From the NCBI RefSeq assembly GCF_900089605.1, contig NZ_LT594324.1, positions 1,302,001-1,366,000 on the forward strand: a stretch of 64,000 bases of DNA. The letters are read 5' to 3'. This document shows positions 1-17,233 of this stretch, piece after piece. Made by a program: the position numbers and the translations under genes. Position 1 is the first letter of the stretch, and each line of letters begins with the position of its first letter. This DNA is from Micromonospora narathiwatensis (GTDB lineage: Bacteria; Actinomycetota; Actinomycetes; Mycobacteriales; Micromonosporaceae). The notes beneath the pieces are model-generated. The model was not told the origin of the DNA. It did not search any database and saw nothing but the letters and a program-made list of their open reading frames with translations.

Positions 1-3000
1 GACGCGCTGCGGCTGCGGCTGGTCCGCGACGAGCCGGGCGGCTGGCGGCAGGTGATCGGCGCGCGGGGCAGCGTGGCCGCCGCCGAGTTGGTGACCCGGG
101 TCGACGCGGCCGGCCTGGACGCCGACGAGCTGCGGGCGCTGATCGAGGAGCAGGCCAAGGGCGTGCAGGCCCGGCTGGCCCCGGGCGCCGGGCGGGTCCT
201 GCGGGCGATGTGGTTCGACGCCGGCCCCGACCGCCCCGGCCGGCTCCTGCTGGCCCTGCACCACCTGGTCGTCGACGGGGTGTCGTGGCGGATCCTGCTG
301 CCCGACCTGGCCGCCGCCGCGCAGGCGGTCGCCGCTGGGCGTACCCCTGAACTGGAACCCGTGCGGACGTCGCTGCGCCGCTTCGCGGAACAACTGGTCG
401 CCGAGGCCGCGCGTCCGGAGCGGACCGCCGAACTGGACGGTTGGCTGGACCGGCTCGGCGCGGCCGAGACCCCGCTCGCCGGGCGGCCGCTCGACCCGTC
501 CCGGGACACCGTGGACACCGGCCGGCTGCTGACCGTCACCCTGCCCGCGGAGCGCACCGCGCCGCTGCTGACCCGGGTGCCGGCGGCCTTCCACGGCCGG
601 GTCAACGACGTGCTGCTCACCGCGCTCGCCCTCGCGGTCGGCCGGTGGCGGCACCGGCGCGGCGAGCCGGACGCGGCCGGTCTGCTCGTCGACCTGGAGG
701 GGCACGGCCGGGAGGAACTCGCGGCCGGCCTGGACCTGTCCCGCACCGTCGGCTGGTTCACCACCATGTATCCGGTCCGGCTCGACCTCGGCCGGCTCGA
801 CCTGGCCGAGGCGTTCGCCGGCGGCGCCGCCGCCGGCCGCGCGGTCAAGCGGGTCAAGGAGCAGCTGCGCGCGGTGCCGGACAACGGCATCGGGTACGGC
901 CTGCTGCGGCACCTCAACGCCGACACCGCCCGCCGGCTGGCCGACCTGCCGGCCGCGCAGATCGGCTTCAACTACCTCGGCCGGTTCGCCACCGCCGACG
1001 GCGGGGACACCGACTGGGCGGTCGCCGCCGACACCCAGGCCCTCGGGGGCGGAGCGGACGGCGCGCTGCCGGTGCCGCACGCCGTCGAGGTCAACGCGGT
1101 CACCCGGGACCACGCCGACGGCCCCCGGCTGTCGGCGACGTTCTCCTGGCCGCAGAGCCTGCTCGGCGAGGCCGAGGTACGCGAGCTGGCCGACGACTGG
1201 TTGGCCGCGCTGGACGCCCTGGTGGAGCACGCCGCCGCCCCCGGCGCCGGTGGGCACACCCCGTCCGACCTGCTGCTGGCCCTGTCGCAGGAGGAGATCG
1301 AGGCGATCGAGGCCGCCCAGCCGGCCGCGAGCGACCTGCTGCCGCTCTCCGCCTTGCAGGAGGGGCTGCTGTTCCACGCCCTGTACGACGGCCCGGACCG
1401 CGACGTCTACACCGTGCAGCTCTGTTTCGACCTGGCCGGTGAGCTGGACGCGGTGGGCCTGCGCGACGCCGCCGACGCCCTGCTGGCCCGGCACGCCAAC
1501 CTGCGGGCCGCGTTCCGCCAGCGTTCCTCCGGCGAGTCGGTGCAGGTGGTGGTGGACGGGATCCGTGCCGGCTGGCGGGAACACGACCTGCGGGAGCTGG
1601 CCGGCGACGGGCAGGCCGACCGGGTTCGCGAGCTGCTCGCCGCCGACCGGGCCGAGGGCTTCGACCTCAGCCGCCCGCCGCTGCTGCGGTTCACCCTGCT
1701 GCGACTGGGCGACACCGCGTACCGGCTGGTGCTCACCAACCACCACATCCTGCTCGACGGCTGGTCGGTGCCGACGCTGATGCGGGAGCTGCTCGCCCTG
1801 TACGCCGCGGACGGCGACGACCGGCAGCTGCCCCGGGTGGCGCCCTACCGCGACTACCTGGCCTGGCTCGGCGCCCAGGACCGGGCGACCGCCGAGCGGG
1901 CCTGGGCCGACGCCCTCGCCGGCCTGGCCGAGCCGACCCTGCTCGCCCCGGCCGACCCGGGCCGGGCCCCGGAACTGCCCGACCGGATCACCGTCGACCT
2001 GCCGGCCGAGCTGACCGCCGCCCTCCAGGCGCAGGCCCGCCGGTACGGCGTCACCCTCAACACCATCCTGCAGGGCGCCTGGGGCGTGCTGCTCGGCGCG
2101 CTGACCGGTCGCGGTGACGTCGTCTTCGGCGGTACGGTCTCCGGCCGCCCGCCGGAGCTGGCCGGGGTGGAGACCATGGTCGGGTTGTTCATCAACACCC
2201 TGCCGGTACGGCTGCGCCTGGACCCGGCCGAGCCGATCGCCCGACTGCTGCTGCGCCTGCAGGACCAGCAGTCCGCGCTGATGGCCCACCAGCACCTGCC
2301 GCTGACCGAGGTACGGCGGCTGGCCGGGCACGGCGACCTCTTCGACACCCTGGTGGTGTTCGAGAACTACCCCCTCGACCCGAAGCTGCTCAGCCTGCCC
2401 GGCAGCGGCCTGCGGCTGACCGGGGTGTCCGGGCGGGACGCCACCCACTACCCGCTCACCGTCACCGCGATCCCCGGCGAGCGGCTGCGGCTGCAACTGG
2501 ACCACCGCGTCGACCTCTTCCCGGCCGAGGCGGCCCGGCGCCTCGCCGACCGGCTGCTGCGGCTGCTCGGCGGCGTCGCCGCCGACCTGGACACCCCGGT
2601 CGGGCGGCTGGACGTCCTCGACGAGGCCGAACGTCGGCTGGTGCTGGCCGACTGGAACGCCACCGCCCAGCCCGAGCCGACCCTGGCCGGCGGGGTGGCC
2701 GCCCGGTTCGCCGCGCAGGCCGCCCGCACCCCCGACCAGGTCGCCGTACGCGCCGCCGACGGCACGACGCTGACCTACCGGGAACTCGACGCCCGGGCCA
2801 ACCGGCTGGCCCAGCACCTGGTGGCGCTCGGCGTCGCCGTCGAGGACCGGGTCGCCCTGCTCCAGGAACGCTCGGTCGACCAGGTGGTGTCGGTGCTGGC
2901 GATCCTCAAGGCCGGTGCCGCGTACGTGCCGCTGGACCCGCGTTACCCGGCCCACCGGTTGACCCACATCGCCGCCGACACCGCCAGCTCGGTGCTGCTC

Positions 3001-15923: not shown

Positions 15924-17233
15924 GCGCCGGGGGAGCCGGCGTGCCGCGCGGACCGTTCGCCGCGGCCGTCGCCGCCGCCCGGGCCCGGGGCGAGCTGGTC
16001 GTGCAGCCCCGGATGGGCTTCGGCGACCCGGCCGCGATGCGGGCCGGGCTGACCGCGGTGGCCCGGGCCCGGGCGACGACCGCGGGCACCGTCACGCTGG
16101 ACAGCTACACCCGGGTCGGGGACCAGGCGGCGGCGGTACGCGCGCTGGCCGACGGGTCACCCCTGAACGGCTATCCGATCGTCGCGCATCCGGTGGAGGT
16201 GACCCGCTGGGTGCTCGCCGCCGCGCAGCGGTACGGCATGCCGGTGCAGGTACGACACGGTTCGGCGCTGCCCGAGGAGATCTTCGCCGCGCTGCTGCGT
16301 ACCGGGGTGGACGCCACCGAGGGCGGCCCCGTGTCGTACTGCCTGCCGTACAGCCGGGTGCCGCTGCGCGACGCGGTCGACAGTTGGGCGCGCTGCTGCG
16401 CCGCCTACACCCGGCTGCGCGACGTCGGCGTCGAGCCGCATCTGGAGAGCTTCGGCGGCTGCCTGCTCGGGCAGCTCTGCCCGCCCAGCCTGCTGGTCGC
16501 GGTGACCGTGCTGGAGGGGATGTTCTTCCGGCAGCACGGGCTGCGCAGCGTGTCGTTGAGCTACGCCCAGCAGACCTGCCCGGAGCAGGACGAGGAGGCG
16601 CTGGCCGCGCTGCGCCGGCTGGTCGACGAGCTGCTGCCCGAGCTGGACAGCCACATCGTGCTCTACACCTACATGGGGGTGTATCCGCGTACCAGCGAGG
16701 GGGCGCTCGGGCTGCTCGGCGCCGCCGCCCGGCTCGCCGTACGCGGGGGAGCGGCCCGGCTGATCGTGAAGACCCCGGCCGAGGCGCACCGCATCCCGAC
16801 GATCGAGGAGAACGTGGCGGCGCTGGAGCACGCGGCCCGGGTCGCCGCCGCCGAGCCGCCGGCCACGACCGGCGTCGAGGACACCGGGATCTACGCCGAG
16901 GCGCGGGCGCTGATCGAGGCGGTGCTGGACCTCGGTTCGGACGTCGGGGTGGGCCTGGTGCGGGCCTTCGAACGCGGCCACCTCGACATTCCGTACTGCC
17001 TGCATCCGGACAACGCGGGCCAGGCGCGCGGCTACATCACCGCCCGGGGGCGGCTGGCGTGGGCGCGGGCCGGCCGGATGCCGGTCCGGGTCGACCGGGC
17101 GGCCGGGGGACGGCCGGCGGAGATGACCAGCGACGGCCTGCTCACCGCGCTGTCGTACGTGGCCACCCGGTACGACCAGGCGGCACCGCCGGCCGTCGGG
17201 CCCGCGGAGTCCGTCCCGGCGCTGCCCCGCTGA
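15920..17233 (+). CDS. glmE: Glutamate mutase large (catalytic) subunit
   Basis: 437 aa from GTG 15920, which overlaps the small-subunit stop (GTGA) so the two chains are translationally coupled. Conserved substrate-site blocks are visible: LVVQPRMGFG, VRHGS, EGGPVSYCLPYSR (the EGG/Tyr region of GlmE) and MGVYPRTSEGA. It is shorter than the roughly 480 aa clostridial enzyme. The last NRPS A domain has an Asp-type pocket, so the likely job is to make 3-methyl-Asp for the peptide, as in friulimicin and skyllamycin type clusters. Confidence 0.93.
   Translation: MSAGGAGVPRGPFAAAVAAARARGELVVQPRMGFGDPAAMRAGLTAVARARATTAGTVTLDSYTRVGDQAAAVRALADGSPLNGYPIVAHPVEVTRWVLAAAQRYGMPVQVRHGSALPEEIFAALLRTGVDATEGGPVSYCLPYSRVPLRDAVDSWARCCAAYTRLRDVGVEPHLESFGGCLLGQLCPPSLLVAVTVLEGMFFRQHGLRSVSLSYAQQTCPEQDEEALAALRRLVDELLPELDSHIVLYTYMGVYPRTSEGALGLLGAAARLAVRGGAARLIVKTPAEAHRIPTIEENVAALEHAARVAAAEPPATTGVEDTGIYAEARALIEAVLDLGSDVGVGLVRAFERGHLDIPYCLHPDNAGQARGYITARGRLAWARAGRMPVRVDRAAGGRPAEMTSDGLLTALSYVATRYDQAAPPAVGPAESVPALPR

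Follow-up and report, generated by a model that had tools for sequence, protein, structure and literature searches.

A probable coprisamide-type biosynthetic gene cluster in Micromonospora narathiwatensis

The 64,000-base stretch of Micromonospora narathiwatensis DNA analysed here (the window; bases 1302001-1366000 of a 6,611,957-base single-contig genome, G000) carries the right half of a block of 28 genes, in which a six-module non-ribosomal peptide synthetase (NRPS) is coupled to a type II polyketide synthase (PKS) acyl cap system. We read this block as a coprisamide-type biosynthetic gene cluster, with a probability of about 86%. Its assembly line is predicted to read acyl-D-(Ala)-D-Ser-D-(Leu)-Val-Dap-MeAsp (Dap, 2,3-diaminopropionate; MeAsp, 3-methylaspartate), where the substrates of modules 1, 3, 5 and 6 are putative. 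Statements on published systems rest on passages of the papers cited by PMC number.

Gene content and conservation

The block runs from window position -29205 to 17233. The cluster genes in the window all lie on the + strand and are recognised by Pfam. Modules consist of condensation (C), adenylation (A) and peptidyl carrier protein (PCP) domains, with optional epimerization (E) or thioesterase (TE) domains. The features are as follows, together with the paired ketosynthase (KS) and chain length factor (CLF) genes of the left flank.

-3296 to 11682, +, NRPS-2, whole gene (start at genome position 1298704), 4992 aa, four modules, of which 1..11682 lies within the window
1..11682, +, part of NRPS-2 in the window: E domain of module 3, modules 4-6 and thioesterase (Pfam, motifs)
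190..567, +, core of the module 3 E domain, approximate and partial extent (motifs, domain coordinates)
1333..4461, +, module 4, C-A-PCP, A code DAYWWGGTFK, taken as Val
4501..7653, +, module 5, C-A-PCP, A code DVWEMTADDK with acidic pocket, putatively Dap
7696..10848, +, module 6, C-A-PCP, A code DLTKLGMVNK, putatively MeAsp
10903..11598, +, thioesterase domain for release and ring closure (PF00975, residues 4734-4965)
11679..11912, +, MbtH-like protein (PF03621)
11922..12659, +, ketoreductase (KR) of the short-chain dehydrogenase/reductase type (Pfam; motif YSASK)
12735..13151, +, hotdog dehydratase (DH) 1 (PF07977)
13144..13626, +, hotdog dehydratase 2 (PF07977)
13662..13919, +, acyl carrier protein (ACP) (Pfam; DSL serine present)
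14003..14815, +, alpha/beta-hydrolase 2 (Pfam), paralogue of alpha/beta-hydrolase 1 near the KS/CLF genes (42% cross-match)
14836..15459, +, DsbA/HCCA-isomerase-like polyene isomerase 2 (PF01323), with a left-flank paralogue (48% cross-match)
15507..15923, +, glutamate mutase S subunit (B12 binding, DxH motif in SSDAHTWNL)
15920..17233, +, glutamate mutase E subunit (PF06368, 301 bits)
L007:12157-16483, left flank, two KS/CLF pairs

The left flank opens with a 170-aa protein that matches no Pfam family; a SARP-type regulator (BTAD), a two-component pair and a DUF3995 protein come next. These are followed by KS1, CLF1, KS2, CLF2, alpha/beta-hydrolase 1, a 4HBT protein, isomerase 1 and a FabH-like ketosynthase III (KSIII), and then by SbnA, SbnB, a two-gene ABC exporter and NRPS-1. 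The latter (3097 aa) comprises two E-domain-containing modules and carries the starter C domain. The catalytic Cys is kept in KS1 and KS2 and replaced in CLF1 and CLF2 (alignment by eye).

The original prediction, made from the window alone, had listed co-directional NRPS modules, MbtH, KR, two hotdog DHs, ACP, an HCCA-isomerase-like protein and a glutamate mutase, all of which are present according to Pfam; the alpha/beta-hydrolase at 14003-14815 was omitted. It described a three-module NRPS: modules 4-6 and the TE are indeed in the window, but they belong to a four-module gene that starts outside it, at -3296. The KS/CLF genes and the starter C domain that it expected in the flanks are both located in the left flank, as two pairs and within NRPS-1, respectively, so that its first refuting condition, flanks lacking KS/CLF, does not apply.

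The closest relatives by CLF are Micromonospora sp. CB01531, Micromonospora sp. MP36 and M. tulbaghiae DSM 45142 (G099, G111 and G150). All 28 genes are colinear in G099 (80-96% identity, best segment per gene) and in G150 (67-98%, likewise). In G111, 15 of the 28 genes follow the same order (82-96%), the remainder being cut off by contig ends; a glutamate mutase E of this genome was found on a separate contig. Across 160 species genomes of Micromonospora, a CLF-like match (E ≤ 1e-30) occurs in 39, whereas a CLF with 75% identity or more is present in only four, the window genome counted.

The right end of the conserved block is at 17233. Directly after the cluster lies an FAD/BBE-type oxidase (17359-18999, Pfam), which had no tblastn match at 1e-20 beside the block in the right flanks of G099 (6.4 kb read) and G150 (4.7 kb read), and the block therefore ends before it. 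On the left, no orthologues of the genes preceding the block adjoin the cluster in the flanks read (5.2 kb in G099, 9.3 kb in G150).

Between KSIII and SbnA, G099 and G111 have about 2.1 kb of extra sequence with a gene for a MerR-headed serine recombinase-like protein (IS607-like by eye). Neither the window genome nor G150 has room for this insert in the corresponding gap.

The peptide assembly line

The two NRPS genes encode six modules in the order Cstarter-A-PCP-E, C-A-PCP-E, C-A-PCP-E, C-A-PCP, C-A-PCP and C-A-PCP-TE. A-domain codes were extracted from anchored motifs, and the values for the window genome agree with a hand reading. The codes of A1-A3 are DVFSVAIVYK, DVWHISLVDK and DALLVGAVAK; those of A4-A6 (DAYWWGGTFK, DVWEMTADDK and DLTKLGMVNK) stand in the list above. 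Sixteen further A domains were readable in the three relatives and 14 of them carry a code identical to that of the window genome; in the remaining two, A5 of G099 and A5 of G150, a single code residue is changed (L for M). The A-domain order is also the same in the relatives, within the contigs read.

We take the codes of A2 and A4 to be the textbook codes for Ser and Val, and that of A6 is presumably Asp-like. E domains are present in modules 1-3, and the C domains fall into three groups, namely C2-C4 (59-65% alike), C5-C6 (57%) and C1 alone (20-30% to all others). The residue configurations expected from these groups and the E domains are therefore D,D,D,L,L,L.

The acidic pocket of A5 would fit a diamino acid. 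A comparison with PDB entries covered A1, A4, A5 and A6 (not A2 and A3). The best match of A1, A5 and A6 was linear gramicidin synthase, and the tables for these three domains give no substrate specificities. Against PvdL, A5 scored 369 bits, compared with 258 for A1 and 248 for A4, and PvdL was absent from the A6 list at 1e-70. PvdL handles 2,4-diaminobutyrate (Dab). As A5 alone has a raised score against PvdL, a diamino acid is favoured at module 5.

In a 2026 review (PMC13192320), coprisamide C of Micromonospora UTJ3 is abbreviated to '6*-cacyc(slV7*D(b-m))V', where 6 stands for a cinnamic acid of the 2-(6-methylheptenyl) type and 7 for Dap. By our own parsing of this string, with 'c' as cinnamoyl and 'a' as D-Ala, it contains seven residues: alkenylcinnamoyl-a-cyc(s-l-V-Dap-MeAsp)-V. 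The order a-s-l-V-Dap-MeAsp with configurations D,D,D,L,L,L agrees with the assembly line at six positions, where the Ser and Val codes are clear and the other four residues are predicted. The assignments of A1 to Ala and A3 to Leu are provisional, as they derive solely from the comparison with coprisamide C.

A new cinnamoyl peptide with another sequence, sharing only Dap and MeAsp with the coprisamides, is improbable. Taken alone, the codes of A1 and A3 do not decide the matter and would allow it, but Ser and Val, both precursor pathways (Dap and MeAsp) and all six configurations match coprisamide C position by position.

Supply of Dap and 3-methylaspartate

Dap biosynthesis genes are present in the cluster: SbnA scores 392 bits (NCBIfam equivalog cut-off 350) and SbnB 406 bits (cut-off 327). 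Because both are encoded here, we read the module 5 residue as Dap, and Dab was set aside for the same reason. Genes for MeAsp biosynthesis are likewise present, with GlmS and GlmE recognised by Pfam. The Asp-like code of A6 and this glutamate mutase together lead us to read the module 6 residue as MeAsp. Glutamate mutase E is not rare in the genus, since 39 of the 160 Micromonospora genomes carry one (E ≤ 1e-20).

A second glutamate mutase (S and E) is found to the left of the window, in a set of 15 genes at G000:C1:1255076-1272334 (L008:10076 to L007:7334). This set further encodes a cytochrome P450, a pyridoxal phosphate-dependent decarboxylase, two FGE-sulfatase-like proteins, a luciferase-like monooxygenase, a radical SAM/SPASM protein, a MutL-like activator (by eye), two ATP-grasp proteins, a major facilitator superfamily exporter, an AMP ligase, a GNAT protein and a small protein. 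All 15 genes occur in G140 and G096 (80-95%) and ten in G073, whereas G050, G012 and G128 share little besides the mutase. We rejected the set as a part of the cluster, as G140 and G096 both lack a CLF match at E ≤ 1e-30; nor does it adjoin the cluster in the left flanks of G099 and G150, within the 5.2 and 9.3 kb read there. Among the titles listed in a literature search, nothing fitting this set turned up.

The acyl cap

Passages of PMC6510318 define cinnamoyl peptide clusters by the joint presence of isomerase, KR, DH, ACP and NRPS genes; here, type II KS, KR, DH, ACP and isomerase genes are clustered with NRPS genes. According to PMC9381841, two or three KS/CLF pairs mark cinnamoyl systems, and the present cluster has two. 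An alkenylcinnamoyl cap is thus more likely than a linear polyene.

Linear-polyene-capped compounds are represented by ishigamide. Linear polyene and cinnamoyl systems have KR, DH, ACP and KS/CLF genes in common, which would allow an ishigamide-like cap, as would the lack of an identified dedicated aromatase in the cluster. The two KS/CLF pairs and two isomerases, described as cinnamoyl marks (PMC9381841, PMC6510318), argue against such a cap. So does the comparison with 11 other loci, four of them only about 4 kb long, of which five (L033-L037) have a 4HBT protein and an isomerase and three (L033-L035) an alpha/beta-hydrolase. We consider a linear polyene very improbable.

The downstream BBE/FAD oxidase was considered as the aromatising enzyme of the alkenylcinnamoyl route and set aside, since it is missing beside the right ends of both relatives' clusters. 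In passages of PMC9321520 on the epoxinnamide cluster, none of the ring-forming cyclases (Kcn17-19, YsfX homologues) is found there.

The KSIII is 66% identical to the only other FabH copy in its own genome (E ≤ 1e-30), which we assume to have the housekeeping role. Among the best 120 of 7037 matches, it is 82-97% identical to eight and at most 73% identical to the other 112, and by these values it looks like a cluster-specific FabH paralogue. By carbon count, the 17-carbon acid of coprisamide C would correspond to isovaleryl plus six malonyl units, so a FabH that primes with branched chains is expected. A branched starter also fits the 6-methylheptadienyl tail.

Related gene sets were seen in other genera. 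Saccharothrix sp. S26 05 (L034) combines cinnamoyl-type KS/CLF, KR, DH, ACP, 4HBT and isomerase genes with adjacent GlmS/GlmE. The same gene set with a glutamate mutase pair is present in Rhodococcus sp. 06-235-1A and 1168 (L036, L037), which seems unexpected in Rhodococcus. In Amycolatopsis vancoresmycina NRRL B-24208 (L038), SbnA-, SbnB-, MbtH-, ABC- and KR-like genes lie near a more distant KS/CLF pair; this locus perhaps specifies a further peptide that contains Dap and draws on a type II PKS.

Proposed pathway and the seventh residue

Beyond the observed gene content, module order, E domains, A-domain codes and conservation, we infer the product, its ring position, the starter and the cyclisation steps as follows. 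The FabH-like KSIII would prime the discrete ACP with a short acyl starter, which is probably branched (isovaleryl). The polyene would be built by the two KS/CLF pairs, the KR and the two DHs, after which the DsbA-type isomerases may set a cis bond that allows the chain to close and aromatise to 2-alkenylcinnamoyl. The starter C domain of NRPS-1 would hand this cap to D-Ala, and the six modules would assemble acyl-D-Ala-D-Ser-D-Leu-Val-Dap-MeAsp, with Dap supplied by SbnA and SbnB and MeAsp formed from glutamate by GlmS/GlmE. The terminal TE is predicted to release the product and close the ring, probably by joining the MeAsp carboxyl to the Ser hydroxyl. The seventh coprisamide residue, Val, would be added by a route outside the visible module order.

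This last step deserves separate attention. No evident Val ligase, extra A domain or aminoacyl-adding enzyme is found among the 28 block genes, all of which were scanned with Pfam, and a single TE directly follows the MeAsp module. Either the product lacks the seventh residue or Val is added outside the module order. Tentatively, the six-module line may yield a heptapeptide whose branching Val is attached outside the module order, most simply at the side amine of Dap. The C domain of module 5 could use the Val module a second time, one of the two alpha/beta-hydrolase paralogues could act as an acyltransferase, or the enzyme could be encoded elsewhere. If so, formation of the Val branch would be an unusual NRPS reaction.

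A des-valyl relative, identical in its cyclic hexapeptide core and cinnamoyl cap but lacking the branching Val, appears rather doubtful. It would agree with six modules, one TE after MeAsp and the lack of an evident aminoacyl-adding gene in the block. Set against it are the constant A-domain order in the relatives, as far as read, and the consideration that Val is added in UTJ3 as well, should that cluster likewise turn out to have six modules. The literature passages on coprisamide, which do not include the original paper of Shin et al. 2021, give no module layout for the UTJ3 cluster; a passage of PMC11537117 states that four clusters, one of them coprisamide-like, have between 5 and 10 A domains.

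Several observations weigh against the coprisamide-type assignment as a whole. Six modules stand against the heptapeptide coprisamides. The codes of A1, A3 and A5 had no match to a characterised domain in this analysis, and the A5-PvdL score favours a diamino acid but does not distinguish between Dap and Dab. GlmS (64 bits; NCBIfam equivalog cut-off 110) and GlmE (156 bits; cut-off 390) fall below their cut-offs, and the window GlmE belongs to the lower of two PF06368 score groups in the genus (261-320 versus 371-418 bits). No aromatising enzyme is evident among the block genes. Finally, the likeness to the coprisamide C/D cluster, for which PMC12837462 gives the MIBiG entry BGC0002378, rests on published descriptions and not on a sequence comparison.

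Comparison with known systems

The nearest known products are coprisamides C and D of Micromonospora sp. UTJ3; PMC11119530 describes them as coming from Micromonospora and containing 2-alkenylcinnamic acid, MeAsp and Dap. They share the genus, Dap, MeAsp, the in-line order and the branched alkenylcinnamoyl cap with the proposed product, but no module of this cluster accounts for the seventh residue (Val) that they carry. Coprisamides A and B (Streptomyces SNU533, PMC9321520) are likewise cyclic heptapeptides (PMC4778507) with Dap and MeAsp; their 2-heptatrienyl cinnamoyl group has an unbranched tail (PMC4778507), unlike the branched one proposed here.

The kitacinnamycin, epoxinnamide and skyllamycin systems also couple KS/CLF, KR, DH, ACP and isomerase genes to an NRPS. 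Kitacinnamycin requires nine modules (PMC6510318) versus six here, and epoxinnamide is a deca-depsipeptide (PMC9321520). Youssoufene (ysf) and globisporamic acid (gla) are products of similar isomerase-dependent, cinnamoyl-building type II PKSs with three KS/CLF pairs (PMC9381841) instead of two.

The cluster is largely ordinary and belongs, as expected, to a small family that is already known. With it, a complete coprisamide-type cluster is available on one contig, together with three more Micromonospora hosts, as material for testing the choice of the alkenylcinnamoyl starter and the addition of a seventh residue to a six-module peptide.

The idea of a cinnamoyl-type, highly reducing type II PKS combined with an NRPS for Val, a diamino acid and (Me)Asp, put forward in the original prediction, is supported. 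Its Dab/Dap residue has been narrowed to Dap by SbnA and SbnB, and of its two cap types, polyene or cinnamoyl, alkenylcinnamoyl is the more likely. The coprisamide family had been named as kin, yet the Val-diamino acid-Asp order was said to match no known product; this is not supported, because coprisamide C has the order s-l-V-Dap-MeAsp (PMC13192320).

Other features of the window

Scanning the window with Rfam at gathering thresholds and for tRNA genes gave no matches. Away from the cluster, positions 29581-30753 encode a stand-alone 390-aa alanyl-tRNA-synthetase-like protein (PF01411), which adjoins an acyl-CoA dehydrogenase.

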